A DNA stretch of 64,000 bases from Hymenolepis diminuta (lineage: Eukaryota > Platyhelminthes > Cestoda > Cyclophyllidea > Hymenolepididae). The notes under the pieces were generated by a model. The model worked only from the letters and a program-made list of their open reading frames with translations, made no database searches and was not told where the DNA came from. The stretch is from the NCBI GenBank assembly GCA_900708905.1, contig CAADRB010000009.1, forward strand, positions 62,001 through 126,000. Reading direction: 5' to 3'. Below are positions 23,232 through 57,762 of the stretch, in pieces. Every line of letters starts with the position of its first letter. Positions within the stretch are counted from its first letter, which is position 1. Position numbers and translations under genes: made by a program.

Positions 23232-26200
23232 CTACTGCGATTGGGCAGATTCAATGTCCTTTTCGACTAGTTTTGCAGTTGTCGGATGCATATAAGGTCT
23301 GTTTGCCTTAAAATTGTTTATCGCCTGCGCTCTAATACTCGGCCATCCCATTAGTGCCCTGTATAACGGTCGGGTAAACTTTAAACGTCCCTGGCTATTG
23401 AGGAACTCCAGTGCTCCATCTAAACCAGGTAGATATTGCGAGTCGATTACGATCTGTGACCACCTAAAACAATAACTCAGTACGTAAAAGTGACCAATAG
23501 TGTGATAGAAATTATAAGTTACAAACCTAAAGCGGATTTCAGTATTTTGTGTTTGAGATAGTGCCAGCATAGTATTGAGAACATTAAGATTATCATGCGG
23601 AAGTGGGACATATTTGAGTAGTTGTTGCCATAACAATTGACGTTGGAGGGGAATCATTGATTCATACTTTGACCGCAGATAGGCCGCACATTCAGTATCA
23701 TTAATCAGAGACGTGCTTCTAATCTTCTCTGTTATTTCATCAACCACGTTTGATAGCACCCGATTTGTCCTACAATGAAAAGACGGATAATTGGATTACC
23801 TAGAAAGCTTGAGGGAAGAACCTAAATAGAGTAGTTACTTACGGTGGAACCCAGGGAATGGGACCAGCAGAGAATAGCCATGTGTCCCAGTCAACCTCAT
23901 CCAAAACCTGTTTACCCAAATGTAGGGACAAAAACTGTTTCCATTCATCCGTAGTGATAGATTTTTCCCGATAATTGTCGATATACGCCCTTAGCCATTT
24001 TAAAATAGCTTCTACAAGATAATACAATGAATGTGAGTGGATCATATAAGCATTTAAATTAACCGTAGACGGAAAGGAATAACTGACTTGCCTTTGCCAT
24101 ACGTTTTCTCTAAGTAATAGAGGAACAGTGAACCTTTTTGATAAGGCACAATGGAGAAAGAGTCATCCGTGTGTATCCCCTTTAAACAGGGGATCAATTT
24201 GGCAAAAGGATGATTTGCCTTAAATTCATTTTGGAGCTAACGAGAAAAAATAGACATATCTCAGTGTGCCACTTACATAAATAGATAAGTCATAAGTAGC
24301 TAAATAGAGAGAAAAAACTAACACAAGCTTGTAAGACCTCGTAACCCAGTTCAATAAAGAGTTCACGGTGGTCAGTTCCATAGAGCTCCTCCAGAATGAG
24401 ACCTTCCACATAGACGGTGTGTCCTTCGTTGAGCCAGAAATGTTCCCAGGTGGCATTGGTTACCAAATTACCCGTCCATGAATGAGCTATTTCGTGAGCA
24501 ATGGTGGAAAGCAGAGACCCATCTCCTGCCTAAAATATAATAGAAATAATTGGTAGTAGCTAACATCCGTTTACTTTCTTATATATACATACATATACTT
24601 TTTCTGATTTAGCTACCGTGAATAATGTTGTCGATAAAACAGGAATGCTCACACAAAGCAAGAAACAAATATACTTCTAAGTAAGGGTATAACTGGAAAA
24701 TAAACAGAGCAGAGACACAACACAGTAGAATAAACCTAATTTGCTTGTCTCGCTTAATGTGTGCGGCCAGATATATGCTATAAGGCAGTACCTAACGTAT
24801 AAATAATTTAGATAGTATAGATAGTTTATAGATAATGCGAAATACATGGAGTTAGTATTATGACATAAGTGTAGTATTCAGACCTCAAAGTTAGCATTTT
24901 TCTTGTCATGCTTTCGTTCGGATATATTTAATTAGAAAATATTTATTTAATTTAACCTCTCTCCCCATGCATGTATGTGCCTAGATTAACCTCAACTGAA
25001 CTAGCCAACATGGTGGCACTTACGATGTCTCTAAGTGCGCCGGTGGCGCAGTGGCCAACGCACACATCTGCCAAGTCAGAGAAAAAAGATCAGTGCTCAT
25101 CAGTGCATATACAGTGATGTGGTTAATTCTTATCAACATAAGGGATGGTAGAGTGGCTTCAGGATACATGACTTACCCAAATTAGGTGCTGTCAACATCT
25201 CCTTTAGTGGGCTGGGGAATACCTATCGACGCACATTCAGTAAATGAATGACTAATACCTCCATCAATAGTTACCAAGCTCACTAAACCAACACTCTAAA
25301 TTGCAAGTTTACAGTCATGAGTTTTAAAATCAAGTGAAGAAAAATGCTAGCAGCAAACTTACAAGAATGGTGGGAGTAACAAAAGTTAACTGAGGGTTCT
25401 CCATTCCTCCGTAAGGGAAGCTTGGAGGTAGGACAAGGATATCATAACATCCCCAGGAGTAGGGACCACATATTTTTACTGCAGCATCCAACATTCGATC
25501 GACCACGTTGAATTCACGTGCAGCTCGGGGTAGCACGCTCGGTTCAGCGTATACTCGAGAATTCAGTCCAATGGGTCTAAAAAATAAGCAAGCAAAGAAA
25601 TGAGATTATTATATGCAAACCTGATAAGCGTACACTTTAAAAAATAGCTTATTATAACCCCTTTAAGTTAAGAGACATGTTGTGGCTTTATGACGCATCC
25701 ATCGTAAGACATTTCCTTCCAAATGTGGTTTTCGATTTCATTATCATTGTTTGAACTCGATAGAAACCGACAAAGAAACGTTAAAGACGCAATTATTGTT
25801 CTGCCTCGGAAGGAGAAATTCCAACGGGTTGTGTTCAGTTCGTCCATTATCCTTATCAATGTGCAGGCGCATGTCACTCTTGACAGCTAATCGAGACAAA
25901 AACCTGTTATCGGTTCTCTTTTGATTTCCAAACATCAATGATGTGAAGACAACTTGTCTTGGAGTAACTGAACTTCTGTCTTATCTCTCCCCCTAGTTCT
26001 GAGCGAACATTAGTTTAGCAATATCCAGTGAACACCTAGATCCTAGCGATTGAAACTAGACCTACCACTTACAATATGACAAAAAACCTCATATGAAATT
26101 AACAATGAAAATGAGGAGTAATGTAGGAAATAGATGAATTAGTTTTGTTAAATTGGTTGCGTAGGCGACTTATCACCGGGGGAAATTTTGCAATACAACT

Positions 26201-29200
26201 CTGGTTAATAAAAACAATCTATTGGCACGGGTCCGAAACCATCAGCATGACTTCAGTGCGCAAAATAAAAATTCCTGCTCATCGGGGGAAAATTGAAAAA
26301 AAACTATAAAATTATACAAATAATATTATTTCCCAATATTAACTTGTGATAAAACAGCTAGCATGATGCGCAACCTGAAGATTTCAAGCCTCCATAATTA
26401 CCTAATGATAGTGATAGTTCTACAAGCCCGGTATTTTCACCAGCATATTGAAATATGGACGCAAAGTAACAGAACATCACACTACACATTAGGTATAAAC
26501 ATATATCAACTCTTGGCAAACGCAGTAAGTTTACGCTCTACTGCTAATCAGTGAACGCGATAAACATAATCAGTCAAGAACTAAGATTATAATATCACAT
26601 CTAGGTTTTCATGCTCACTCCATCCGGAACAGTAAGCCATCACCTCATTGCAGCAGTAGATACTAATTACTACCTGTAAGTGAGAGAAGCAAGACTCTAA
26701 ACTATAAACTAAAATGAATGTGCAGGGAGGAAGGTTTGATTTCCTCTACGCAGTCACGAAAGTCAGTGAAGCGCAATAAAAGGAGTAGATATTGACATCT
26801 AAGGGGTGAGACAAAAAACACCGCTAGAATACGTGAAACAGTTAAGAGGGGGTGCTGGAAATCACTCGAAAAATGTGTGCTCCCAGTCACAAGTACCTCT
26901 ACTAATTCAGGGAAGCAAGTTCGAGACCCTAAAATAAATAGAATGTTCAATGGGTTGCTGTTGTTCTATAAAGGGTATCAAAATAGCAGTTTTTTAAATC
27001 GGAGAATTCAGAACATATATATACATGTATCTCTCCCTCTCTTTAAAACGATATTAACATTGAGAAGTGTGTACGTACAATCTTAGCAGATAAGATTGTG
27101 CGTATGATGAGGTCAGTCCTTTGTTGTCTTAACCATCAGGTGCTTTTTTTCTCCAATGCTTCAGTCATGTATCGTTCTTATTTTCGTGGCCGTAAATAAT
27201 CGGGATCTCCATTTAGTATTACAATGATCTCATCCTCTTTCCTCATTCAAAATTAGGTCACAGTCATTCATGACCTAATAGAGGAGGTAAGCTTCCATTT
27301 ATTAATTTTTTATACGTTGTCCCACCATTTCGGGAGAAGAAATGTAAGTATTCAATAATGCACCTATACAGCACATCAATAGGATCTGAAAACATGTAAT
27401 TTTTTGGAGGTTCAATCAAATTTAAGTCCACTCCAAGGCGAACGTGACAGGTTCTCATCAAGTCATTTTTCTAATACATGATCGTGATGTGTTTCCTGTT
27501 GGTCATTGCGGCTGAGGATCAATAATGCCATTGGTGGTGCAAAAGGAAAACTTTCATTTCTGTAAAAATTCGGATACACTTAACAGCATAAGGCTTTACT
27601 GCAATCGGTTGAATTCCCATGAGGTGGAAATTTCCACTTTTAAAGATGGGGATAGGTGTGAAAGTCTAGTCAAACCAAAAACCTGCTGATGTTGATTACT
27701 TTGCCTTAGTCATGTCTTTATATTAACTTTCTAGTTCTCCTCAGTAACTAATGGCTCAAAAGAAGCTTTGGATTAACAGAACTAAGGTGATGTATGAGAA
27801 ATTCTACAAACTAACATGGAAATCACGTAAAGCTACTGAAATGACCACCCAGCACTTGCCAAAGCCCTCTTTGAAGTAACCTAGAAGGATGTTACATTTC
27901 TTCAGCATAGATTTGAGATAGACTTGACAGCTAATACTAATAAGCCCAACGAGACCATTGATAATAAGAGATACACACGCAAAAGTAAGCATTAGGACAC
28001 AGGATGTTTTAAAAAAACTATCAAACATCACAAAAACCCACTTACGAGTCATTCAGCTCACCACAGGCCAAAGCAATGAGATAGGAGGGGACTCGGACAT
28101 TCTGGAAGAAATAGTGGGCGCCCCAATTCTCCTGCACTTCAGAGGACGTCGAATTCGACTTTGTGGCACTCATCAACACTTGGAGATTAGCTGGTGCAAG
28201 TATCTACAAATACAACATACAAACTTGTGTTAGTTAATAGACTAAAGTAGACCAACAGTGAAAAAGCATCAAGAGAGTTCGGAATACTTCACTATTGTTT
28301 GGCAATTTCAGATACTTGGTCAGAAACAAAAGAATGCCATCTAAACGACCATTAAAATGTTAAAACATCTTAGCTTATGGCATTTGATTTTCGATGTTAT
28401 GTAAAGGGATAAATTTATCAGGGTGACATGACCAGTAACTCAATTCAACATCGCGACATGAACTTACCATAGGGAGCTATACATTGAAATTTGAACTTTG
28501 GAACGTGATGTAGAATTTATAATATTAAATGTGGATAATTTATTGCATGTAGAATACAAATGATGCCCTGAGCTTATCCCCCTCGTCTACTCAGTTTTCC
28601 AAACTTTCAACACTTATCGGGTCCTTTCACTATTGCCCGTGTTTCGATGCTTTCGCGTAATTAAAATTTTCAAACTAAAAACTATGTAGTAAATAGAAGA
28701 AGAGTTAAATAAAATAAAAGACCACTGAGAGGAGTGAGAGAAGCAAGAATGGAAAATACATAGGGTCTAACTAAACATCATTCACTTTCAATACAACGGA
28801 GATCCTAACAAATAGCCAAATTCAAGAAAAAATACCTTGACTAGATTAACAGAAACCAAACATTGACCTTCCACCACACTCCCTCCTAAATCGACAGTAA
28901 AGACGTAAATGAGAGCCCTATTTCCTGAATGAAGGTATTCTTCTATACCTATAAAAGATGGAAAGTACGGCAGTAGCCAGAAAACAAATAGAAGAGTCAT
29001 AAGGAAATTGCCAATAATACCTCCAGGAGTTAATAACACAGAGGTAGTGCTCATTAACTAATCAAAAGGAAGAAATAGCAGGCAATTCACTAAGAAAAAT
29101 CAAGCATTTAAATGCTTGAATGAAAGCCATTTTAAAAACATAATAGGTATCCAGATTCATCCCTTTTGGAAAGGCCATAACAGTAATTAGCTAATGATGG

Positions 29201-31861
29201 ACAAAATCGTATAAAGGTGTATGGACACAGCGCAGAAAGAGTACTCTGGTTAATTTATATGATCAAGAAAACTCAATTCCCTAAACTCGTGTGTATCATA
29301 CATAAAAAACAGTCCACGTTTAAAATACATAGGATTTGTGTGGAGCAAAGTGATTTCCTGCCGCATCAAAGGACACGAGTTCGAAACCCATAGACATATA
29401 CCTAATGACAATTTGATCACACCAAATGAGAGCTTCCAAATAAAAAAATATTTGGGATGTTTTTCGTCTTTGAAATACTTAGGTACAAATAGAAATTTTG
29501 CTTTTGTGATATAAATAATTAAAGTAAAACAGAGAAACCGGCACTAAATTATTAATTTTATGAAGACCATATGAGAAAAATCAACCTTTCTAAATGAGCA
29601 AATAGAAACCAATTAGCGATTTCATCTAATTTATTCTCAAATTGAAGTTTACAATAAAAGGAACATATGCTTGAAAATGTATTTATCAAATCTGAATTCC
29701 AGATAATATTGTTATTAGAGGAAAATAGAGGTATCACATTATGCAAAGAAATCGGGTGAAAGAGAAAACAAATAAACAAATTAACTTGATCTTTTCCTTA
29801 ACAAATCTTGAATACGAACGCGATCACCGATAATAGAAATAAAATTGTCAACATTTTGTCCAATCAGATAGATAGATTACTGAAATCCAAACCAGTTAAG
29901 CAAACTTAGAGTATACAAACAGTGAAATCAAGAGCCATAAGTAAAATACATTCAATTGAATCCCTATCAAAAAATGCACGAATTGGACAGCACATAATTA
30001 CGCTACGTGAAAGGAATTCTAAGATTAAAATTAACAAGAATTATTCACCGATAAGACAACAATAAATTGATCTCCCACATCAAATAACATAGGCTCGAAA
30101 TCCATTAGAGTAAACAGTCTGACTGTAATGATGAATCACTACAAATCAAGGAAAACCCGGAACGTTATCCAAACTTACTTGGCTGATAAAGTTAAGAGAA
30201 AAACGGTACCTAGAGCACGAACATAGATATGTAATAAAATGCTTACTGATTTGGTTCAAATCTAGCAAATGAGGTGCCAGAAAAATTTCAAAGAATTCAG
30301 CTAATACAAAATTAAGTGAAAATTCATGGTTCTAGTCAACCTAAAACTCTAAATTGTTAAGCACTGGAATCCGATCCTCTACCAGAAATACATTCAACAA
30401 ATTACATCTTAATGAGTAGCAATACAATGTTATTAGAATGAAAAACGTTACTGACAGAAATATCTTAAAAAATAGTTATTGAACAAAGATCGACATCAGC
30501 CATCTTTATAGAAAAAGCTGAAAAGTTACCTTAGGTCAAAACCCAAGTCTTAATTACCCGATTCATATCTTTGGCACGAGCATCAAAATGAGCGATAAGA
30601 TCAGCAAAGTGAACGACAATTCAGGCCTAAGGCACGAAACATTAACTAATGCTTTAAGAGTGAGGGATAAAAGAAAAAATGCAGGAAACAAATAATGAAA
30701 TAGTAATGACCAATTTGAAGCAGCTGAAGTGACGGCCGAAACAAAAGTGAAAACTGACCTTGGCAGTGTAAGTGAATTTAACTTTCGGTGTGTCTTGGCA
30801 TGGAAATAGGCTACGCGCATGAATAGCTTGGCATTGAGTAAACAAGAAGGGACTTCGTTTGTCCGCAGTCATTTGGGCTTCCAACCACTGGAGGGCTGAG
30901 GCCTGGGGAGTTGTAGAGTACTCAATCACCACAGCGAATCTACAAGAAGGAAAAGAGGATATCAAAGAAGGAAAATTCCTTAACCAAATAATCTTCCACA
31001 AGCGTACTTGGAAGCCTGCTTGCCAACTTTAATGCATAGGACACTCCCAAGGGCTGGATAGCTGCCCGGATGGATTTCAAAGTCGACCGGAGCATCATTT
31101 AATGTTACACGGGAGACGTTGATATCCTTTATATCAAGTTTCTAGCAAAGCAGCCAAAACAAGAAACTTTTCAGCACAAAATCTCCATACATGATATGCG
31201 TAAAACAAGCAGACATCAGTGAGAGTAATACATCATGTAAATGGGCAAATTCTTACCAGCGGTTCCTGTTTTTCAGTGCTTGTATCAATTTGTTCAATCA
31301 TGATTTTAACATTACCACTAACAGTTTTGGTGTCGAAATCGATTTTCAAATCGAAATCGACATGTTGAATTACGTGGAGATTGGGGTTTGCTTCAGAAGA
31401 TGGATCATGGATTGCAGCATTACTTACGATAGCAACTTCCTGAAATATTAAGACAGAATTGTAGTCAGATAAAAGCTTTCGTATTATGGCATAAACCCGG
31501 TCGGCAAGCACATTATTTTTTTATAAGCAGACGAAAAATATGTCGAGGACATCTAAAGCTAGAATTGAGCAATAAAAAGGCAGACAAAGCATTTAGTGTT
31601 AACATAAGCTGCACCATGATAAATTAAATAAATTTAACGTAAATTAAAACGAGTACAGCTTAAGCCGATCTGTACACTGAAAACGATAGTTATAAATCAT
31701 GTGATGTGGATAAAACATTTTATTTATGAATTAATATCAAACACAATAATATTGCACATAATTTACAGAATAAATTTTATCGCATACAATATGAAGGAAA
31801 AATACTTTTGAAAATTTATTTCACAATTTCTTGAACTCACCGAGGAGTGTGAAAAAGCCAT
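23232..31861 (-). CDS. LTA4H: Leukotriene A4 hydrolase / M1 aminopeptidase, copy A
   Basis: Zinc metallopeptidase of family M1. Vertebrate relatives hydrolyse LTA4 to LTB4 and cleave small peptides in the cytosol. Eleven exons: 31841-31861, 31257-31439, 31008-31141, 30759-30939, 28046-28203, 25363-25576, 24323-24529, 24092-24236, 23843-24011, 23527-23769, 23232-23463. They total 1887 nt, 628 aa plus TAG (human enzyme about 611). Key residues: Q148/Q150 in [10 protein letters not shown], exopeptidase motif GGMEN (282-286), zinc site HEIAH (309-313) with E332 in LNEGH, D390, catalytic Y398 in VPYQKG, and R578/K580 in GRLKF. Relative to human LTA4H, the Tyr378 position is Phe (393). The C-terminal helical domain is complete. 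The start is a 7-codon exon (MAFSHSS) with a matching exon in copy B. Intron 8 has a GC donor. No signal peptide is seen. All catalytic parts are present, so it is probably an active aminopeptidase; whether it makes LTB4 cannot be told. Confidence 0.93.
25031..25260 (+). repeat. tRNA-like SINE candidate in an LTA4H copy A intron
   Basis: The start has a good Pol III A box (GGTGGCGCAGTGG). It continues CCAACGCACACATCTGCC, which aligns with the same region at 12970 (TAGTGGTCAAAGCACACTTC). No proper acceptor stem or T arm can be built, so it is a tRNA-derived repeat head and not a tRNA gene. Confidence 0.45.
26745..26830. repeat. Short interspersed repeat, copy 1
   Basis: Shares CCTCTACGCAGTCACGAAAG and a following AT-rich part with sequences at about 40970 (CCTCTGCGCAATCACGAAAG) and 41500 (ATCCAATCACGAAAGCCAAC). 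A GGGGTGAGA stretch at its end parallels GGGGTGGCA elsewhere. It lies in intron 5 of LTA4H copy A. Confidence 0.4.
28836..29054 (-). CDS. Exon-like hydrophobic ORF inside an LTA4H copy A intron
   Basis: An ATG at 29054 opens 73 codons up to a possible donor (AAG/gtattt). The peptide has a strong membrane segment ([16 protein letters not shown]) and ends [12 protein letters not shown]. Base composition is more balanced than in the surrounding intron. No domain is recognised. T-rich intron DNA often encodes hydrophobic chance ORFs on this strand, so confidence is low. Confidence 0.2.
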
Positions 31862-33239: not shown

Positions 33240-33575
33240 TCTATCGGGGCCACATTAATCGAATAGATGGAATGAGTCAAGTCGCTCATATCGTCAGATC
33301 AGTTCTGAGGTGGCAGACTAGCCACCCCAATTTATTGATAAGTAAATTAGGTTTATATGCAAAATACTTCTTCGTTGGACGTCAGTCATGTCTTGTTGTC
33401 GGAGTCTCTGCGTGATGATAGACACCCGTTTAGGTATCTATGTGCAAACACAGAGCGGGACCACCTGTGAACATTATCACCAGTCATTCATTTCTAATCG
33501 TAGGGTGTTGATAGACATCTGCTGCCTATGGCATTACCCATTTCTAAATCCTAGACACATAGATAAAAAAGGGTA
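33240..33575 (-). repeat. Dispersed LTR-like repeat, copy 3
   Basis: The reverse complement matches copy 1 (16868-17185) over nearly its whole length: GCAGATGTCTATCA, CGATTAGAAATGA, GGTCCCGCT, TTTGCACATAGATACCTAAA, GGGTGTCTATCATCACG and TATATAAACCTAA or their close variants appear in order. Several of these blocks are identical or differ by one base, so this insertion is fairly recent compared with copy 2. Confidence 0.6.
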
Positions 33576-35032: not shown

Positions 35033-38000
35033 CTATTGCGCCTGTCCTGATTCAATGTCCTTTTCCACCTGTTTTGCGGTTGTCGGATGCATATAAGGTC
35101 TATTCGCCTTAAAGTTGTTTATTGCTTGCGCCCTAATACCCGGCCATGCCACTAAGGCTCTATATATCGGTCGTGTATACTCCAATCGTCCCTGACTATT
35201 GAGAAATTCTAATGCCCCATCCAAACCGGGAAGATATTGAGAATAGATTACAATCAAGGCCCATCTAGAAAATATGAAACATGCGTTGCTTATTCTACTT
35301 ATAGTAGAGGGAATTAAAATTATTTTTACCAACCTGTAGCGAATCTCAGCATTCTGCGTATTTGACATTGATAGTACGGTCTTGAGAACATTAAGATTAT
35401 CGTGCGGAAGCGGGACACACTTGAGCAAACGTTGCCATAGCAACTGTTGCTGAAGCGGAATCATTGATTCATATTGTAATCTAATATAAACTGCGGAGTC
35501 ATTATCGTTGAGCAAAGACGTGTTTATGATCTTTTCTGCTACTTGATCTACAACTTTGGATAGGACACGATTTGTTCTCAAGGAAAAAAAGATAGACAAT
35601 TAGATGCACATTTCAGTAGATTTAAAAAAGAGAGAATTAACGTAGATACTTACGGAGGTACCCAGGGAATAGGACCGGCGGAAAATAGCCATGCATCCCA
35701 GTCAATTTCATCCAGCAACTGTTTGCCCAAATGTTGAGCTAAAAACCACTTCCATTCCTCTGTAGTAATGGACTTTTCTCGGTAATGGTCAATGTACGCT
35801 CTCAACCATGTCAGAATGGCTTCTAGAAAAAAAAACAGAGAAGAGCATTGTGAATAATGAATAGATCATATAGACGCTGAAATTCAAACTACCTAAAAAG
35901 ACCTACCTTTACCATACTTGCACTCCAGATAATAGAGGAAAAGTGAACCCTTTTGATAAGGGACTGTTGAGAATGAGTCATCCGTATGAACTCCTTTCAG
36001 ACAGGGGATCAATTTAGTTAATGGATGACCTTGGTTGAATTCCTTTTCCAGCTAAAAAAAGGATAGAGACACACCTCACGTTACTACTTATTTAGCCAAA
36101 TCACTTAAAATAATTAGAGAGAGGAGAGACTTACACAAGCTTGTAGGACTTCGTAGCCCAATTCAATAAAGAGTTCACGGTATTCGGTCCCATAGAGCTT
36201 CTCTAGAATGAGACCTTCCAAATAGACAGTGTGGCCCTCGTTGAGCCAGAAGTGTTCCCAAGTTGCATTAGTTACCAAATTGCCTATCCATGAATGAGCA
36301 ATTTGATGAGCGATAACTGAAGTTAGAGATCCATCTCCTGCCTGTAAGTATAGCATAAGAGATTAAAAGTAAATCAGATAGATGTGTATGTTATTTCTGA
36401 TTTGTTTCTAGGGGTTGTACCTCGACAAACGCAATGAAGTGGCGAAAATTGATACACAGAACTAAATCCGTATGCTGATAGATATAAGTGAAAATCAAAT
36501 AAAGCTGAATGGTTGAAGTAAATGATTAACTCTTCAAATTACAGTATTAACAGTATTAAGCCAAAAATCGTTAACTTGGGATAACTAAGACCCCATTCGG
36601 AACCGCTTAACAAGCAGCTCCGATGTACTCAAAGTTAGAAGTCGGAAGGGAGAATGAATACGCCGATTTGATAGATACAACAGTGCGATTGTGGCTTAAT
36701 AAGACCGTCTATAATGACTATCTGATCGGAAAAGGAATATGGGCCAAAATCTGCATCGCAGACAGGGCACAAAAAGCTAAAAAGAGGAAACGCTTACCAA
36801 TTCCACAGACGGCCGCAGATATGATGATAATTTCAGATATTATGAAAATAAGATTATTTCCATGTATAATTGAGAAATACAAGTTGTTAAGAGAGCAAAC
36901 CAATCCAATCAACCCTATTATTTATTGGTCATCAATATAAAAAAACCGTACCCAGTGTAAGAAGGTATATGACCTTATAAAGTGCTAGCTCTACATTTCA
37001 AAACTCGAACATTAACAAAACAAGAACTTCTTTTTTCCCAAATCGGATATTCGTAGATAAGTCTTGAATAATTAGACAAAAGAAATACAGTTTATTATAG
37101 AGTCGTAAAAGTTGCGCTAGATAAACGTAATGTGAATCACTGACCGTTTATGCCAGCATTTGAAGCCCAATACGTATAGGGAGATAAAATGCTCAATGTT
37201 ATCCCCATAAAATGCCGGTCTCCACAAAAAATAACGACTACATCTAAGGTACACCCATGAGGTGCACTTAAACAAAAAATATTGCCAAAAATTAAACACC
37301 ATGCGAGAGATAAGAGCTATATATCATCAATATGCGAAATTCTTTTAAACAAATTTAACATTTCTTTTTCTACTCATACCAATTTAATGTCCGACTTGAT
37401 TGATAAGTCATAAGCCCGTTGATCACTCATCTTAAGCAAAGAACTAGACTCATGATCGTAGGCGCGCAATGTATATGAATTCTTCTATCAAAGCTTAAAT
37501 GTTTGAAATTTTAGGCTAAATACCAATTTATCTGCTCTGTCATTTTACACATCTTTTTACACTCATCGGTACTATTAAATTCTACGTTCCGTCTGCCTGT
37601 ATTATTAATCTCCTAGGCGGTTAAAGTACTTATTTCTAAGCACGAAGAATTCGTTATTCTTACAGTAGTAAAGATTGTGGTTTCTCCAATAGACAGCTCC
37701 CCAGGTATTCAAAAACTTTGGATTTAACGGAAAGCTTGAAATTTAGTTATTAGAATAAGATAAATACTAAGCGTAGATCTTGTTAGTAATGATAATTAAC
37801 AAACAATAAGGATGAGACAATACTGCCCCTGAATTACAGCATTCCCCAATGGATTTTGGATCCACCCTGATTTAAAGAGCACAAAGATAAATTATCGATT
37901 TTAAATGGGTGGAACAACATTAAATGTAAGCCCTGAAATTTACACCNNNNNNNNNNNNNNNNNNNNNNNNNNNNNNNNNNNNNNNNNNNNNNNNNNNNNN

Positions 38001-41000
38001 NNNNNNNNNNNNNNNNNNNNNNNNNNNNNNNNNNNNNNNNNNNNNNNNNNNNNNNNNNNNNNNNNNNNNNNNNNNNNNNNNNNNNNNNNNNNNNNNNNNN
38101 NNNNNNNNNNNNNNNNNNNNNNNNNNNNNNNNNNNNNNNNNNNNNNNNNNNNNNNNNNNNNNNNNNNNNNNNNNNNNNNNNNNNNNNNNNNNNNNNNNNN
38201 NNNNNNNNNNNNNNNNNNNNNNNNNNNNNNNNNNNNNNNNNNNNNNNNNNNNNNNNNNNNNNNNNNNNNNNNNNNNNNNNNNNNNNNNNNNNNNNNNNNN
38301 NNNNNNNNNNNNNNNNNNNNNNNNNNNNNNNNNNNNNNNNNNNNNNNNNNNNNNNNNNNNNNNNNNNNNNNNNNNNNNNNNNNNNNNNNNNNNNNNNNNN
38401 NNNNNNNNNNNNNNNNNNNNNNNNNNNNNNNNNNNNNNNNNNNNNNNNNNNNNNNNNNNNNNNNNNNNNNNNNNNNNNNNNNNNNNNNNNNNNNNNNNNN
38501 NNNNNNNNNNNNNNNNNNNNNNNNNNNNNNNNNNNNNNNNNNNNNNNNNNNNNNNNNNNNNNNNNNNNNNNNNNNNNNNNNNNNNNNNNTCACACTCTGA
38601 AATCCTTCTTCATTCATATTGCTCAATACATTTGTCAGATAATAAGATCATTAAATTTGTTAGTCTAAGGGTATACTAACTAAAAGAAAACTTTACTTTA
38701 TTTCACAGTGGGTCCGTTTTAAGATGGACGATTTTAACAATTTCATTTGGCATAAAAAACATGGTATAACCAGTCCTTGGAATTTACATATACCATATGT
38801 ACGTAAACCATATGATTAAGGATGAGACTTTCAACCGAAAAATAGAGATTCCCGAAAGCCTAAGAATTAAGAAGGACATTCCTAGCATATTACGAGGCCC
38901 ATTTAGCAAAAACTCTAAATTACGCATGCTGATGCCTTTGTTAAAACAACAGAATTAAAAACATTTACTAAATCTTATGTCTTGTTATGAAATGACTAAA
39001 AATTAATACTATTATTCAAATAAATGTAACAGTATTTGACACTGCAATACATCAAAGGAAAGAGCATTGAAGGTAGACTTACAAGAAGAGTAGGAGTGAC
39101 AAAAGTCAACTGTGGATTCTCCATACCACTGTAGGGAAAACTGGGAGGGAGAACGAGAATATCATAGCAGCCCCAAGAGTAAGGACCACAGATTTTGATC
39201 GCAGCATTCAACATTCGATCAACCGCAGAGAATTCTTTTGCAGCTCTAAGTAACAAACTCGGCTCTGCATACACTCGTGATTTCTGTCCAATGGGTCTGA
39301 AAGAGCAAACAAGCAGAGGAACGAAATTATAACGTACACCCCTATCCCGTCGTATGACATAAGTTCAAAACTCATCGATGCGCATCAGGCGATCGGAATG
39401 ACCAGTTGTAATCATTATAAGTCCCCAAGAGGGATGACTAAATACAAGCCAAACTACTAGATCAGGAATTCCTTCTCACGATATAAATATTTTACGACAC
39501 TTTCTTCAAGAGACTTAATAATTATGATATAACGGCGCCGTTAAAGTTATATTTAAGAACCGAAAATAGAAACTTAGCTTGTATCAGCCAGCTGTCCTAA
39601 AACAATTTAATGGACCTCCGGATGCTGCTGTGTGAGAATATACTGAAAATGATTTACGAGATATGCAACGAAATAAAGATGCATATAGCCCGTTGCCAGG
39701 TATAAAGGTGATGAGAGACAAAATCAATGACCTGAATGGAGCTGACGAACTCCGTGAATAAATATTGATCCTCAAAAAACGGGCTTCTTTCAAGCTCATA
39801 TCTGAAAATGAAGTCCCGTCATTGTTACATTACTGGCTAACAAGGCATCCGCACAATCTAAGTATCCCAGCTATACTTAAACTGTCCTCCGTTTTCTTCC
39901 TCTCGGTCTGGACGGATCACTGTAATCAAGACACCAATAAGCATTAAGGACCATTTCTCAAGGAGATTTAACAAGCACTCTAGTCACGAGGAATATGTAC
40001 ATTAGTATCATTACTGCTATAGATGAAAATAGAACTCAAACTTAACTGCAAAATCCTTAGATGTATGTATAATCAATATTCGGTAGAATAGATATGGGGT
40101 TCCTTAAGCCGCACAGTTTTTCCCACATATTCATGAATTATTCGGGAAGATCATTCAAATTATATGAAATATTGTCAGTGAATTTTCAGTCCCCATCTTT
40201 ATGCAGGAAGCAACAATGCTGTGATGTATTGCCAACTGAACTGTAAAATTCCGTTTAGTCATGATCAAGTCACGTAATTTGCATGCAGATGACGAAAGGC
40301 TAATGTAGAAGCCTCCCGTAACTTAAGGTTAATATAAAATTCAAGTCTCATGCATTTTAAACACCAGATTCTTGGATAAAATATTCAATAAAGATACCTC
40401 TTAAAGCAGTAATATATGCGAAGACTGTAGCCGTTTTATCTCAAGAGAAAAATTCTAGTGGCAATTATTATTAAATGACACTAATATATAAAAAATCAGA
40501 CAACAGGGGTGCGGTAGAAGGACAGAATCTACAAAATACGGAAATCGATCTTAAAGAATCAGCAATAAGTTTAAAGAGATTGGTACTGCCTTACTTCAAT
40601 CCTAATTCATTTTAACTGTGAAAAAAATGGTCTACACAGCTATTTTTGAATCAGGTTTAATAATTTAGGCCCTCATTAGGAAATTAAATCGGTTTGTATA
40701 AAAATATAGGTAGAGGATTGACTGCCTATCTGGTTGGCCAGAAATATAACATTGAGAAGATTGCGTTCCCAGAAGTTCAGCAATCGATAATTCAATGAGG
40801 GATGAAACCTTTTAACTAGAGAACGTAATTAAAAGCTAACTTTGCACTGATTCGTATTCATTCAATAAACACCGATTCACTTAGCGCAACATATACTAAT
40901 TACAATGTGCGATAGAGAGATGCAAAACGATTTAAAATCTAGGTAAATTGCAGTTACTTAGGTTCCTCTGCGCAATCACGAAAGACCAGCACCACAAAAT

Positions 41001-44000
41001 GATAATAAGTACTAGGACAGCGCCAGCTGCAAATCACAGCTTATATCAACATGCAGCTCTGCAATAATAAAAAGGTAGATAGGGGTGGCATCACTGTCCA
41101 ATCTTTTACATTTGCAAAAATACAAACGAATGCAAACCTTTACTCTTGAAAACCGAAAGTAATGCTATTTTATCCAACCAAATAGAATGCTCTAAACTAT
41201 TTCAGGCCAGGGGGATTATAAAGACGGACATATGCGGGATGTGCTGAAATCTTAGTTCCACGACTGAAATCTTCAAATTTCACCCATCCATTCTTTCTCT
41301 CAGTAAATTTTAACCCATGCATCTCATGTCCAAAATCGCGACAGCAACGTTCAACTCAGATATCACATATTCAGAACTCGTTAATGAACGGAAGACTAAC
41401 TACTGTTCAGTGGAGTCTCTAGATCATAGGGGCAGCAGAACGGGGTTTGGAATCACTGATTTGACAGCAAATAAAGCACCAATAGGAGACTAAACTTCAT
41501 CTATCCAATCACGAAAGCCAACAATGTGAAATAAAATAAAAAGGAACGGGTAACCAAAGACTAAAAATATGTGAGAGAAAAGGTACATTCAAAATTATTT
41601 ATACACACATCTGATACTATATATGCGAAAGAAACGTGACTAAAGCCTAGGGGGATAGTATCTAAATTGCAAGAAATTTTATTAGACAAAGGTTACAGTA
41701 CGTCCATGGGCCTAGTCACGTATACGATTGATGATGACACAACTAAATGACAACTCACCCAGGTTAATAGTTACCCACTGGTGGCTGATTATTACTGTTG
41801 TGCAATATTTCATCAAAGAGAACATTTGGAAAGAGGAGCGATACTCTTGTCCAATAAGTGCGGAAAGTCTAATGAAAAGTAGAATCGGAAATTTACGATG
41901 TCCTAAGTCGAATTTATAAAATTCACTGAATGTTATTCGTCCCTTCGGCATTAGATTTTTCTGTTACCACTCCTATATGCTTGTGTCTGGGAGTGAAGCA
42001 TCCGTACTGCCATATTTCTGACAAACAAGAGTCTATCGATGAATGTTGTGTCTTAGTGCCTCCAAACTAGCCCATAAGTAGTTCAGAACTCAGTAACAAG
42101 ATTCCAATACAGAAGTCCTTACTCTTAAATATTGTCAAGTCGTCAATGACAACAATATGAACATTATATTTTAGTAAAAAACATTTGTATATAACAATAA
42201 CATGTGTAAAACTTTTGATTAAGATCGCATAAGATTAGAGAATAAAGCCAGGTCGTCAAAAGAGTCTTACTTCATTTGACTTATGAAATTATTAAGTTAT
42301 CCACATCTTAAAATTTCTAGATTTGATCCTGCGTTCCTAAATGAAAGTTCAATTCCACGATATTCAGAACTTATTGACAATTTATAAAATTGAGTGGTAG
42401 GTCATGACGCTTCGATCCATTTGCCTCTTCTTATTTGCAAAATAGACGGGGGTAGCATCTTAAAGCCCCTCTAATGAGAAATTTATATTTCGCCATCTCT
42501 TTTAACCATTTTTAATCTGGACGGACAATTTCTAAGTAACCATAGATTGGCATTATAATCATAATCTCTGACTTCTACATTAACCACTACGCTACCAGAA
42601 AGTAATTTAATTACCTTTATTCGCTTCCACTCTGCATAAATATGTAGGTTTCACAGCTAATCGAATGGATAATATCAATTCCGACTAGATCGGTATATTA
42701 AAGGACAAACAGGAGTGCAATTAGCCCAGAAGTATCCAGCGAAACTGCATTATAAGTGCAAACATTGCTGACAACGTCATAAAAGATTAATTAAAAAAAC
42801 TATTTCATAAAAGCCCGATTTTAATTAAAAGGAAGTTCACTTACGTGTCATTAAGTTCGCCACAGGCGAGAGCAATAAGATAGGACGGTATTCGAACATT
42901 CTGGAAAAAATAATGTTCACTCCAATTTTCCAACACATCAGAAGACTTTGAATTTGACTTTGTGGCACCCATCAACACTTGAAGATTCGATGGAGCAAGT
43001 ATCTACAAATGCAAGTTAAGAGTTAAAACTAACAGAATACCGAGACATTGAGAGACCTAAAAAGCTCAGCATAATCACTTTGCGATAAGTTATTCAGTCA
43101 CAAGAAAAAAGTCCTAGTTATAAACGACAAAGAATACGATGACACTCAGATACACGGACACAGGGTCATATCAGTAAGAACAACAAGAAGTTAGTAACGA
43201 CTAACCAGGTGTATCATAAATACGCTAAGAAATAGATGACTGTATGCAAAAGAAATCGATCTCCTTAGCTATAACAATGAAAGACCCATTGATCTTTCGA
43301 TGATGCCTGTCCCCAATCAACTGCAAGATGGAACATTAATAACATTCAAAGCAGTGAAGTAATACAGACGCAAATTTCCTATACCATTGGGATGTTGTCA
43401 AATAACTGCCTAAACTCGAGAGAATTCAACCCCCTAAAGAGTAATAAAGAAGGGTAACAGTCCTTTAAAAATGTCACAATGTAAAAAATACATAGAATAA
43501 AATAATAACAAAAATTAATCTACCCAGCAAAAATTTGATACCATATCTATGTTATTTGGACTCTCAGTATCGGACCTTATAATGAAGTCATCTTGAGGCA
43601 ACTCAATTGTCATCAATGGTGCCTAGTTTGTCTATCCAATAAGTTGTAACTTGTCATAGAATAATAAAATGTGATCTAAATGAGACTTGTTTTCTCTGAG
43701 GTCTTCTGGAGTTTTGCACATAATTCCTGATATGTTACAATATAATTAACCACGTGTAGTATACACCAGATCACAGTTATACGGTGGTTATACATAACTT
43801 GTTAGTTTTATACCAATAACCGAGTTTTAATTTATGTCCAAAAACAAGGGTTCGATATCGGATGAAAAATATTCGGCGATTGGGATGATTATTCAGATAA
43901 TCAAATATGATCAATTAGCCTACCTTCTCCAAAAAGACTACAGGCAGAAAACATGTCTGTAGACATGGTAATAGACATTGAGAATACCTAAATGTGAAAT

Positions 44001-46589
44001 TCCTTAATTACATTCTTCCCTTTTTAATTTAAAGCGTTGATGCCAGATGTCTCTGTCGAATAGATTGGCAATTCAAAGAAGGCCAAACAGATACAAAATA
44101 TAGCAAATAGTAGAATCCAGAACTCTCAAAGCAAGACGATTTTTTGTTATTTAATTGTAAAATAGAGTGGCTTTTGGAAAGACAGCAAACTTCTACATTC
44201 TACATTTACATCAAATGGATGATTACAAAAAGCTAATAAAAACAAGGTCTTTTGCCCCAAGACTGATATCCAATGCAGTTGTCCCCCAATCGTAGTTAAA
44301 AGCCTATTTACGAATAAAGTGAACAGCAATAAATAGCTCAAACCAAGATTTTGAAGATAGAGACATCTATCACTTCTCCCTTCATTAAATGTAAATTCAA
44401 AAGCTTTTCATCATTGAAACGAACATATATTTACCGTTTTCTTTTAATTAGACTGATCAAGTAAATTAAGTGAACTTGTCGAGCGGATAAAAAGTGAGAA
44501 CAGCCAACAGCGAAAGCATAGATACAAAGCCAGGTCAGAAAGGATGCATAATACAAATTTTTTACGTCTAATTTATATTTCTTAATATAAATTAACTGAG
44601 TTATTTAGGTTTAAGATAATTCTACCTTGCTAAACATGCAGAAAGTTAGAAAACTGGTACTCAGATTACGGATAGGTATTTTTAATGCAAAGACGTTAAC
44701 AGCGTGCGGTTAAGTAGTCGCCATACAATCAACTCACCGTCTCAAGCAGCCGCCTAAATTCAAGAGTGCATTAATACTGTGTGTGAAGGATATTCAATCG
44801 CCATACACTGACTTACTCAAAGGAATTAATTTCTTGAAAGTGCATGGAACTAAAGCGAATTTCGCACTATCGATCACTCTATTGTACTGAAATAATTAGC
44901 CACTTTTGAGTATTCGAACAGAAAGATTTCAAATTAAAAAATCAACTGAACTGAACTCACCACACGAATTTCAAATTTCGATTTCTTAAATTTTACCGGC
45001 CATAAAATATTGAACACTAGAATCTATACATCTCATGACTCAATTCACATCTTTGGCAGGAATCTTGTGGAAATTAAAGACCCCAGTAATCAAAGCCTCA
45101 GGGACACGAAACATAATTACAACTTTAGGCAGAAAGATAATAGTGAATGAGAGTCGAACAATTCAGGTTACAGTCATGACAGAATATTGGGTAGTTTAAC
45201 AAGACGAAAACTGAAACAAAGCTTCTAAAGAAAAAATTTTTAAAGATATCAATATCCTTTCCATCAACGAAACATAAATACAAGTATTTTGTAATCCCCA
45301 ATTCAATTCTTTCTGATTAGACCTCTAATAAGCTAACTGAACACTTAACAAATGACTCTAACAATCAAGAGACAGGAAATGTAATAACAATCTTGGACAG
45401 GTGATAAAATAAAATGAATAGAAAGGTTAAATCAAATCAAGTGAACTAGACATGAAAAATTTATGTGGAAAGTTTAAATCAGAAGGAAAACCTAACCTTG
45501 GCAGTATATGTGAATTTAACCTTCGGTGTGTCTTGGCAGGGAAATAAACTTCGCGCATGAATAGCTTCACACTGAGTGAAAAGGAAGGGATTGCGTTTAT
45601 CTGCCGTCATTTGAGCGTCTAACCACTGGAGAGCTGATGCCTGGGGAGTTGTAGAATACTCAATTACCACTGCAAATCTAGAAGAATAAAGGGGAAATAA
45701 GAACAAATACCCCACTATCTGGCATATAAGACATTAACATACCTGGAGGTGTGCTCGCCAACTTTGACACACATAACGTTCCCAAGAGTCGGATAGTTAC
45801 CCGAATTTATTTGATATTCAACTGGATTGTCATTGATTGTCACACGGGATATATTGATATCTTTTACATCGAGTTTCTAATTAAACACAAAAACGCCAAA
45901 AAAATTTAGCATAATCTGCATATACGACATGTTTGTGGGCAAATGCACTAATGTTACCAGTGTATCTCTACTTTCGGCACTTGTATCAATCGGCTCTATC
46001 AGAAGTTTGACAGTACCACTAACGGTCTTACTGTCGAAATCGATTTTCAGATCAAAATCAACATGTTGGGTATTGTGAAGATCAGGATTTGATTCTGATG
46101 ATGGATCATCAGTAGAGTTACTAATATTCTCAGCTCCCTAAAAAGTTATGATCACAAATGAGTAAACTGAGTAAAACATTCGTACTGGTCATAAACCGAC
46201 CCATAAATAACACAATCCTGTTTACAAAATGATACATTATTAAAATTCATGATTTAGAAAGCATCTGAAATCAAAATCGCATATTATACGCAATAAAGAA
46301 CTCGACATGCGAAGCAAAATCAACCTTTTTGATGAAATTATCTTAAGCAAGCAACAAATAAACAGAAGAAGCGGGTTAATACACTGCAAGCTATTAGTTA
46401 TACAAAAGTGTAATGTGCATCAATTGTTACTGAAAATTTTGGATTTATTAATTAATATTGATTAGAAGAATACTACATACAATTCAAAAATTAAAATCAT
46501 AAAAGTCAAATATAAATTAAACAATATACTTAATTACATAAACATATTCTGTCATTTTTTTGGCTTACCGATAAATCCGGAGTAGCCAT
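35033..46589 (-). CDS. LTA4H-like M1 paralogue, copy B, predicted peptidase-dead
   Basis: Tandem duplicate of copy A. Eleven exons: 46569-46589, 45958-46137, 45743-45876, 45497-45677, 42845-43002, 39083-39296, 36135-36341, 35907-36051, 35654-35822, 35334-35576, 35033-35264. They total 1884 nt, 627 aa plus TAG. Every exon has the same phase as in copy A; only exon 2 differs in length, by one codon. In the zinc-site exon 61 of 69 residues equal copy A. The gene is intact, but active-site residues differ. HEIAH is HQIAH (308-312, Glu to Gln), GGMEN is SGMEN (281-285), the Gln matching human Q136 is Glu149, and the Lys matching human K565 is Glu579. Zinc ligands H308, H312 and E331, and Tyr397, remain. 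In M1 enzymes the HEXXH glutamate is the general base of peptide hydrolysis, so peptidase activity should be lost. A non-catalytic or epoxide-only role is inference. An assembly gap lies in intron 6. Confidence 0.92.
36798..36914 (-). CDS. Exon-like hydrophobic segment inside LTA4H copy B intron 6
   Basis: A 39-codon segment with an acceptor-like aataatag and a good donor (gtaagc). The peptide includes [13 protein letters not shown] and [12 protein letters not shown], suggesting two membrane helices. Another segment at 37145-37237 (acceptor atgtag, donor gtcagt; peptide includes [17 protein letters not shown]) joins to it in phase. Together they could be exons of a small nested membrane-protein gene on the same strand. 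Alternative frames of 37145-37237 are open too, so this is weak. Confidence 0.25.
37947..38589. other. Assembly gap (643 N)
   Basis: A run of N within intron 6 of LTA4H copy B. All copy B exons lie outside it. Confidence 1.
40970..41110. repeat. Short interspersed repeats, copies 2 and 3
   Basis: CCTCTGCGCAATCACGAAAG at about 40970 is followed about 100 nt later by GATAGGGGTGGCATCA (41078-41093), the same two landmarks as at 26745-26830 and 12970-13110. A further degenerate copy of the first landmark is at about 41500-41520. All lie in intron 5 of LTA4H copy B. Confidence 0.4.
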
Positions 46590-47944: not shown

Positions 47945-48115
47945 TTGAAAGAGATCTATCGAAGTCACATCGATTGAATAGAAGGAATAGATGAAATAAG
48001 TCAACTCACTCATGTCGTCAGCTCAGTTCGGAGGTGGTAGGCAAGCCACCCCACTTTATTAATAAGTAAGTTATGTTTATATACAAAAAATTCCTTCGTT
48101 GGACGTCGTTGTAGT
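47945..48115 (-). repeat. Dispersed LTR-like repeat, copy 4 (partial)
   Basis: The reverse complement carries ACGTCCAACGAAGGAA, TATATAAACATAACTTACTT, GGGGTGGCTTGCC and CTGACGACATGAGTGAGTTG, matching copy 3 and, more distantly, copy 1. A second, shorter fragment in the same orientation lies about 200 nt away at 47715-47790 (GTGTAGTGGCTTCCCGACCACC on the reverse strand). Confidence 0.55.
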
Positions 48116-50382: not shown

Positions 50383-50916
50383 AGAGTTTTTGAAAGTGAA
50401 TGGCGCCAGATGTATGTAATTATATTTAGTCCGTATCCCAGATTCTCGTATTAAATAGATGATGCGAAATAGAGATTAAGAAATAAAATAATTGCTTAAA
50501 AAGGATTCAAAGCACATCACGTATAATTAAGTCGATGGCTAAATCTAATTTAACTTTTGTCAGGATGTTTGGATGGACTCTTTCAAACCGTAATATATAT
50601 ATATTTGTATATATGAATATATATTCCTATATTCTTTTAGGAAAAATGAAATATTCCTATTTTTAAGTGTTTTAGTTTGTTTTAATGCTTATGCCATGAT
50701 TGGCCGTTACATTTAGTATTTATAACAGGTTTCTTGCTATGAAGTAGGTTGTTTTGTAATGCTGGTCGGTCCGTGTAGTGCGTTGACATTGTTTTGGGCG
50801 TTGCTTTATTTCGGTTCTCACTACTTTCACATTTTAATGCTATTAGGTCATTTATGTGTTTTCTCCCTGATTCGATACAGTCGTTTGTAACTTGCCTTTC
50901 TTTTTATCTCCTTTAG

Positions 50917-51853
50917 TCCATCGTGGACTCCTCAGCCCAGCAATGCCAGCATCGGTGGCATTCTCAGCAATAATCCCCCGGGATCAGTTGAGCAAATGCA
51001 GCCAACCCCAATTAATCTCGTCAATGTTATGCAAAGTTATGTCACACCTGCCAGTGCTCATACAAACAATCGAACGCCCTACACTCCAAATACTCCTGGT
51101 ACTCCTTTCATTGATCGTGATGGAATCATTCCACAACCGCAGTTACAGTAAGTTTAGCTCATTTTGCATGGTTTGTGTCGTGCAATTAATATTTTTTTTC
51201 GCCATTAGGAACATTGTGTGCACGGTAAATCTCGGGATAAAATTGGATCTTGTCAAGATAGCTCGAAGTGCTCGTAATGCCGAGTATAATCCAAAGCGTT
51301 TTGCCGCTGTCATTATGAGAATTCGAGAGCCTCGGACGACAGCTCTCATTTTCTCTTCCGGAAAAATGGTATGTACCGGGGCCAAAAGTGAAGAGCAAGC
51401 ACGTCAAGCTGCTAGGAAATATGCACGAATTATTCAAAAACTTGGATTCAACGCTAGTTTCAAGGGGTTTACAATCCAGAACATGGTTGGTTCTTGTGAT
51501 GTGCGTTTTCACATTCGCTTAGAAGGTCTAAATGCTGCTCAGAAGTTGTTCACGACGTAAGTTTTCTTCTGCCGTAATCACTCAAGTTTTCACGCTATTT
51601 AGTTCGTTTTTTGTTGTTTAGTTATGAACCAGAATTGTTTCCTGGTCTAGTTTATCGAATGCAAAAGCCCAAAATTGTCCTTTTGATCTTCGTATCGGGA
51701 AAAATTGTGCTGACTGGTGCCAAGGTTCGGGAACAGATTTATCAGGCTTTCAATAACATCTTTCCCATCTTGAAGAATTTTATGAAATTAGATACGGAGA
51801 AACAGCAACAGCAGTCACAGCATCATCAGTTAGCACCGACCCTCACAAATTGA
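50917..51853 (+). CDS. TBP: TATA-box-binding protein, lacking first exon
   Basis: Core promoter recognition factor used by all three nuclear RNA polymerases. Exons 50917-51147, 51209-51556 and 51622-51853 (stop TGA) give at least 269 aa. The first is the Pro/Thr/Asn-rich N-terminal region ([14 protein letters not shown]). The second and third encode the conserved saddle: [69 protein letters not shown] and [16 protein letters not shown]. The first exon shown begins in phase 1 after an acceptor (cctttag) without an in-frame ATG ahead of it, so the initiator exon is upstream and was not found. Unusually, the protein continues about 20 residues beyond the normal end of the fold (after PILKNF), with a QQQQSQHHQ stretch. 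The core is true TBP and not a divergent TBP-related factor, judging by its near-complete match to animal TBP motifs. Confidence 0.95.
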
Positions 51854-56400: not shown

Positions 56401-57762
56401 CTTTTTAAAAATACATAGATGTCAAAAATATAGAAACTGACCCGAAAAAATAAGTATGGGTAAAGCCAACCAAAGGATATGGCAATCATCCAGAAAAACA
56501 TCGCTCTTCGTCGACCAGGATAACCGCATATTGGATACCTTTATGATAAATAAATGGTGCTACTTAATAAAATCAGTAGACGAAATATTTAAAGGGGTCT
56601 GCGTAGGCATTACTGGAATTAATTTTTTTGTAAGAAGCAGAAACATGGGTGAATGGTGCATGTGCATTAAAAAGGTCACATTTTCGGTATGAAGTTGTCT
56701 GAAGTAAATAGTATGCAGACAAAAACTTACGACAATAGGGAAAACAAGCCTGGTTTGGTTGAATAGGTGACGTCTTTTCCTGCTTCATATAGTTCATATT
56801 GAAGCATTGATGCCAACTCAAAGTGACCAAGGTTACCAGCAACAAGCTCCGGAGTTTGGCCATCTTTATTGAGCAATGTAACATCGTATTCTCTTTTCGT
56901 TAAAACCGTGGCCAAACTGCCAAAATCGGATATTTTAAAATAAATGAAAGATGGATTCAATGCGGCTTTTAAAATAGTTGAAGCCGAGACCATATTAGAG
57001 TTTGCACAAGCAATGTGCAAAGGAGAATTTCTCTTCGAGTTCTGATATTCAATTGCGTTTGGACAAAAGCGAAGTAACAGACTGCACATATTCGGACCAC
57101 CTATGACAGTAAATTTTTATCAATATTCACAGTTATAAAATTAAGATTCAATTTTTATTTTACTAACCACGTTGAGCAGCATAGTGAAGAGGTAAGGAAC
57201 CATCAGAATCAGGAATATCTAACTTCGATCCACATAATATTAACATCGTGACCAATGAAGCATTGCTTGACTTGCAAGCTGTGGAATATTAAGTATTTTT
57301 TTAAAGTTAAATTAGAGTTAATCTTCCATTTGAATTATTAATGTGACCAACCAAGGTGAATTGGTGTTAAATTTATCTTGCTTTTCTCGTTAATATCTTT
57401 GCATCTATACAATAGTGTTGCAGCGGCCTCAAAACTCCCTGACTGACATGCGGAGAAAAACGGAGTTTGCCCAACAGCGTTAGGTAAATTTAAACTGGAA
57501 TTTAAAATATCTAGATAGGCGACAACTTTAAATGCATTTCCGAGGGCAGCATGATGCAATAATGTATCTTTAAATGCATCAGTTATGTTTAATAAATCGG
57601 GACTATTCTCTAAAATTTTCTTCAGCTTTTTAAGTTTTCTAAAAATAATAAATTTTCACAAACAAACCCTGATTGTGCGTCTTTAAATATGGGATTTAAA
57701 TATAAATCATTGTGGTTTCCACATTCACCTGCTAACTTATTTTTATCAAGAGATAGATACAT
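53477..57762 (-). CDS. Ankyrin-repeat DHHC palmitoyltransferase (ZDHHC17/HIP14 type)
   Basis: Golgi or vesicle membrane enzyme that S-palmitoylates proteins. Nine exons: 57668-57762, 57352-57638, 57168-57278, 56731-57100, 56442-56538, 55842-56144, 55499-55770, 54046-54214, 53477-53692. They total 1920 nt, 639 aa plus TGA (human ZDHHC17 632). The N-terminal part has ankyrin repeats ([59 protein letters not shown]). Membrane segments follow, then the zinc-finger-like CRD (C472, C475, H485, C486, C489, C492) with DHHC at 497-500. The C-terminus has a TTNE motif (577-580, the TTxE motif), then [15 protein letters not shown]. The usual CPWVxNCVG is CPVTDNCVG here, losing a highly conserved Trp. 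Exon 1 begins at the first ATG before the ankyrins; intron 1 is only 29 nt. The C472 finger has an extra Cys at 477. The ankyrin-DHHC-TTxE layout makes the family assignment strong. Confidence 0.92.

Follow-up and report, generated by a model that had tools for sequence, protein, structure and literature searches.

A tandem LTA4H paralogue of Hymenolepis diminuta with Gln in place of the catalytic Glu, a candidate pseudo-aminopeptidase

The window analysed here, a stretch of 64,000 nucleotides of the Hymenolepis diminuta genome (GenBank assembly GCA_900708905.1, contig CAADRB010000009.1, positions 62,001 to 126,000), carries two LTA4H genes in tandem, both on the minus strand: copy B (46589-35033) lies upstream of copy A (31861-23232). 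Copy B retains an uninterrupted reading frame and the three zinc ligands of the family, and has Gln in place of the catalytic Glu of the HEXXH motif. On balance, we favour the view that copy B is a tandem LTA4H duplicate, formed within the hymenolepidid lineage, that has turned into a pseudo-aminopeptidase. Judged by its sequence, it would most likely still bind zinc and be maintained by selection, perhaps as a peptide trap or a regulator.

Residues are numbered as in human LTA4H without the first Met. In exon 7 of copy B (36135-36341), the zinc-binding motif reads HQIAH (36308-36294). The codon of residue 296, at 36305-36303, is CAA instead of the GAA of copy A, which is the single-base change described in the first-pass annotation of this DNA. 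The same exon holds the zinc ligands H295, H299 and E318 (codon 36239-36237, counted from neighbouring codons), all three intact as that annotation had it, and a substitution that we add to its list, T302 to Ile (ACG to ATA, 36287-36285). In exon 6 (39083-39296), G268 is replaced by Ser (GGA in copy A, AGT in copy B), so that GGMEN becomes SGMEN, starting at 39130, with Glu271 and the second Gly retained. Human Q136 corresponds to Glu in exon 4 (45497-45677; GAA at 45568-45566), and K565 to Glu in exon 11 (35033-35264, including the stop codon; GAG at 35182-35180). The SGMEN and K565 replacements were thus borne out at the codon level. E296Q, Q136E and K565E require one base change each, and G268S and T302I two each. 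Copy B also retains Q134, E271, R563 (exon 11), D375 and Y383, the last two encoded by exon 8 (35907-36051). Human Y378, in the same exon, is Phe in copies A and B, in 7/7 other cestode proteins and in 106 of 120 aligned homologues.

All three Pfam domains were recovered above the Pfam cut-offs in copy B, namely Peptidase_M1_N (90.0 bits), Peptidase_M1 (133.7 bits) and Leuk-A4-hydro_C (87.8 bits). Together with H-x3-H and the downstream Glu, they make copy B an LTA4H-type M1 homologue. It lacks two features of an active aminopeptidase, the catalytic Glu of HEXXH and the G-G-M-E-N exopeptidase motif. As for an LTA4 (leukotriene A4) epoxide hydrolase, D375, E271 and R563 are present but the Arg563/Lys565 carboxylate site is incomplete, K565 being Glu. 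Human LTA4H, a member of the M1 family, shares with copy B the three domains, the zinc ligands, E271, D375, Y383 and R563, and differs from it at Gln296, Ser268, Glu136, Glu565, Ile302 and Phe378.

The gene itself is intact. The spliced model comprised 11 exons and 1884 nt including the stop, giving 627 codons with no internal stop and GT...AG at 10/10 introns, in line with the coordinates, full frame and splice sites of the first-pass annotation. Exon 1 (46569-46589) carries the start codon, encodes MATPDLS and is followed by a GTAAGC donor; the resulting MATPDLSG is similar to MTRPHLSG of the Anoplocephala protein P0002. Exon 2 (45958-46137, with AG and GT borders), exon 3 (45743-45876), exon 5 (42845-43002), exon 9 (35654-35822) and exon 10 (35334-35576) complete the model with those given above. 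A run of 643 N (37947-38589) interrupts the intron that separates exon 6 from exon 7, and no coding part is lost to it. Copy A (23232-31861), the intact paralogue with HEIAH and GGMEN, also has 11 exons and encodes 628 residues; its exon phases match those of copy B throughout, the two proteins are 78.8% identical, and its spliced product matches the public H. diminuta protein P0001 at every residue. The copy A intron after exon 24236-24092 is of the GC-AG type (donor GCAAGT), and its copy B equivalent is GT-AG. When the 170.6 Mb assembly was searched with copy A, 22 matches came back, of which 20 were exons of copies A and B in the window and two were weak ones on other contigs; a third LTA4H copy was thus not supported. 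Other M1-family genes are found on contigs C57, C8 and C3.

We compared both copies with human LTA4H and 119 homologues (P0002-P0120, the best-listed of 7997 matches; P0001 was left out as identical to copy A). Glu296 was present in 120/120 of these sequences, and copy B was the only departure. Among columns in which 90 or more sequences had a residue, 54 were invariant, and copy B departed at one (E296) and copy A at none; at the 76 columns conserved to at least 99%, there were three departures in copy B vs one in copy A. Of the 119 homologues with a residue at position 268, 118 had Gly; Thr302 was retained in 118/120, and Lys565 in 112/119, with Arg in six and Asn in one. Glu136 occurred in 10 of the 119 homologues with a residue at that site, including an HE-bearing protein of Rodentolepis nana and those of several molluscs. 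The Q136 replacement in the first-pass annotation is therefore real but does not serve as a signature of copy B. On this alignment, the four-residue signature proposed there is made up of three rare changes and one recurrent change (Glu136), to which T302I is added.

The changes tend to fall in the pocket, for which we used a list of 25 residues. At 20 conserved sites (19 from the list, plus T302), copy B departed at six, the highest number among 122 rows, with one of the six, Thr374, shared with copy A. P0114 departed at four, and every other row, copy A included, at no more than two. P0114, from Aphomia sociella, has G268T, V292I, R563V and K565N; it may be a further altered paralogue, unless its gene model is faulty. 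When replacements were strictly polarised, 4/19 of those unique to copy B fell in the pocket list (which covers 24 of the 373 usable columns; hypergeometric P = 0.027), and 1/23 of those unique to copy A.

Selection on copy B was assessed in several ways. The pairwise ratio of nonsynonymous to synonymous substitution rates (dN/dS) between the copies was 0.085 (NG86), 0.086 (YN00) or 0.125 (maximum likelihood) over 627 aligned codons, with dS of 0.96-1.39; such values average both branches over the full length rather than describing the copy B branch, and dS is near saturation. In six successive blocks of at most 105 codons, the NG86 ratio never exceeded 0.127. The first-pass annotation had named a copy B dN/dS near 1, with frame breaks in sister species, as a sign of error or pseudogenisation; the pairwise values are far from 1, although they were not fitted to the copy B branch alone. 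Moreover, about 4.7% of random substitutions in copy B would create a stop. Under neutrality, its branch would have received ~900-1300 substitutions (half of dS × 1881 sites) and ~40-60 stops, and none was observed.

A tree of copies A and B with 12 flatworm proteins selected from the list (seven cestode, five trematode; 610 columns after gappy ones were dropped) was built from an input in which some public gene models have faulty stretches and the R. nana protein is a mosaic. Copy B grouped with copy A and R. nana, with Anoplocephala outside (support 98/99), and R. nana grouped with copy A (100/100). This grouping places the duplication later than the Anoplocephala split but earlier than the split of H. 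diminuta and R. nana. From the common node of the two copies, the branch lengths were 0.135 for copy B and 0.121 for copy A. Unique changes in copy B vs copy A numbered 54 and 46 with Anoplocephala as the outgroup (p = 0.48), 28 and 30 when Echinococcus was added, and 19 and 23 when Mesocestoides was added too. A relative-rate test with R. nana added as an outgroup gave 19 changes unique to copy A and 43 to copy B (p = 0.003); we set it aside, because R. nana is sister to copy A and shares its stem, which biases this contrast by design. By these measures, copy B is a gene that appears to have been constrained for most of its history, to a degree similar at the protein level to that of copy A; the figures do not date E296Q. 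The earlier suggestion of selection for a non-peptidase role thus stands in part: an intact gene, low dN/dS, no acceleration of copy B and the loss of a Glu that is invariant in the 120 aligned homologues fit a retained non-peptidase paralogue, but selection for a new role is our interpretation.

The R. nana protein (P0003) is 79.1% identical to copy B and, like the 78.8% identical copy A of which it is the orthologue, retains HEIAH, GGMEN and K565. At the sites where copies A and B differ, it was A-like at 81, B-like at 18 and neither at 23 outside exon 4. Within exon 4, it was B-like at 3/3 such sites, including Glu136 and a neighbouring Asn; nowhere else in the protein is R. nana B-like at a site where Anoplocephala is A-like. 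This pattern would be accounted for by gene conversion from a B copy or by a mosaic assembly, and under either explanation a copy B is, or once was, present in R. nana. That the two sites changed independently is conceivable but less probable. If the stretch came from gene conversion, Glu136 would predate the H. diminuta-R. nana split. A search for orthologues, as put forward in the first-pass annotation, has so far yielded this exon 4 resemblance and no B-like protein among the best 120 of each public-protein search.

What could such a protein do? Copy B would be expected to fold as LTA4H and bind zinc, and to be unable to cleave peptides, because the human E296Q protein is reported to lack activity and its crystal structures contain peptides that were left intact. 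According to a review, Glu296 and Tyr383 are specifically needed for the peptidase reaction and Asp375 for the epoxide reaction (PMC8780674). Human E296Q is presented as an inactive mutant with Pro-Gly-Pro (PGP) bound in one structural paper (PMC5648829), and another describes a complex with Arg-Ser-Arg in which the N-terminal Arg is directed to Gln136 (PMC9177663). The PDB chains 3b7s and 6enb carry the human sequence with HQISH. R563 and K565 are reported, in a further study, to align the substrate carboxylate, and simulated K565A hurts tripeptide binding more than LTA4 binding (PMC3405069). Glu136 may favour a basic N-terminus; Glu565 would take away part of the C-terminal carboxylate clamp and may disfavour the C-terminal carboxylate of a tripeptide. 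An acid where the N-terminal Arg is directed and the loss of part of the clamp point to a binder of peptides longer than tripeptides with a basic N-terminus, or to a regulator of copy A, as the role that seems most likely; copy B would be kept because it binds something. We regard as clearly more tentative the fuller proposal that copy B is a natural, selectively maintained substrate trap, with its pocket retuned by Glu136, Ser268, Ile302 and Glu565 to hold worm or host peptides or to govern copy A. In the trypanosomatid deoxyhypusine synthase and its prozyme, a paralogue that has lost catalysis likewise stands beside an active one, which it regulates; contact between copies B and A is conjectural.

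Several observations weigh against copy B as a selectively kept binding protein. Pairwise dN/dS would not reveal that constraint had been lost recently. The 120 homologues are the closest ones and not a sample of the whole family. The pocket list is one that we assume to be right, the pocket enrichment is modest, the direct contrast between the copies was not significant (Fisher p = 0.16), and the pocket count for copy B rises to five only with T302I, a site added after being noticed. The acceptor of intron 9 of copy B, before exon 10, is GAG, where the remaining 19 of the 20 introns of the two copies end in TAG or CAG. Public proteins were searched with a near-full-length copy B query (candidates of about 338-1076 residues), with exons 5-9 as a 298-residue fragment (about 164-521 residues) and with a joined B+A query for fused gene models (about 690-2196 residues), the ~8000 candidates with the most shared words being scored for the first and last queries. 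No B-like protein was found among the best 120 of each search, in which copy A was listed; a short fragment, or a medium-length one that lacks exons 5-9, could escape. A published H. diminuta annotation used RNA-seq (PMC6890685); its assembly has 719 scaffolds and the assembly of our window 203 contigs, and we do not equate the two.

Because of the missing listed protein and the GAG acceptor, the main rival is that copy B served a function through most of its existence and lost constraint recently, its pocket changes being early decay. We consider this a real but minority possibility. The slight excess of unique changes in copy B with one outgroup (54 vs 46) and its three departures vs one at the most conserved columns also speak for it. 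On the other hand, the 11 exons show no stop, frameshift or loss of GT/AG, and the excess vanishes with two or three outgroups. Glu136 would be older than the H. diminuta-R. nana split if the R. nana stretch is gene conversion, and we estimate that neutrality over more than ~5-7% of the branch would probably leave a stop.

The first-pass annotation had also raised a natural single-function epoxide hydrolase, which would make leukotriene B4 (LTB4) or a similar diol and have no peptidase activity. The retained D375, E271, R563 and zinc ligands would suit it, as would the separate roles of Glu296 and Asp375 noted above and the remark of the simulation study (PMC3405069) that K565A lowers but does not abolish LTA4 activity. 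This reading is nevertheless improbable, because K565 is reversed in charge rather than neutralised, G268 is changed, and the sole lipoxygenase-like match found in the genome carries Arg for a conserved His, which makes an endogenous LTA4 source doubtful; host LTA4 is possible. The LTA4 activity of copy A is itself only presumed. That match (PF00305; contig C56, about 3009179-3009595) has H-x4-R for the conserved H-x4-H in two alignments with solved lipoxygenases. The pair holds the iron, and the match may represent a degenerate or non-oxygenating lipoxygenase. The search was run exon by exon and gave no matches in 14 control genomes, hence no positive control, so that a divergent lipoxygenase could escape.

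Slightly less probable still is that copy B hydrolyses weakly or in an altered way, the part of Glu296 being taken by another group or by the zinc-bound water; the zinc ligands, Tyr383 and the new acid at 136 in the pocket are compatible with it, but the matching human mutant is reported to be inactive (PMC5648829) and Glu296 is invariant among the 120 homologues. Sequencing or assembly errors, which three single-base changes (E296Q, Q136E, K565E) and the N run between exons 6 and 7 might suggest, are very improbable, since G268S and T302I take two bases each, all five changes lie within a frame with 272 third-position differences from copy A, and errors would be unlikely to cluster at catalytic sites.

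A 123-base stretch at 47985-48107 and 33261-33383, 85% alike and ~1.4 kb upstream of both LTA4H genes, was considered as a shared promoter element and dropped: it is a dispersed repeat that scored at 40 places, itself among them, out of 1230 candidates, and the other places are 89-92% alike. No Rfam family matched it at the gathering score, and one sub-threshold match was taken as chance. Elsewhere in the window, Pfam identified a sugar transporter (14874-15455, minus strand), ribosomal protein L26 (20883-21251, plus), a TATA-binding protein (50871-51557, plus), an ankyrin match below the cut-off (56730-57116, minus) and a methionyl-tRNA synthetase anticodon domain (60786-61118, minus).

In the open-licence literature, without subscription journals and judged mostly by title, we found no paper on such an LTA4H copy; the one that mentions both LTA4H and Hymenolepis deals with vesicles from a different flatworm. 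An intact copy B gene that was not seen in our searches of public proteins points to a gap there. If our preferred reading of copy B as a pseudo-aminopeptidase is true, it would be the natural equivalent of a well-known laboratory mutant, in a family in which mutagenesis has told the two activities apart. Like human E296Q (PDB 3b7s, 3b7t and 6enb), copy B has Glu changed to Gln at the same place, giving HQ-x-x-H; unlike it, copy B is natural, present in a genome assembly, and has four further changes in or near the pocket. This makes it testable whether a tapeworm may have kept an M1 peptidase scaffold for binding alone.

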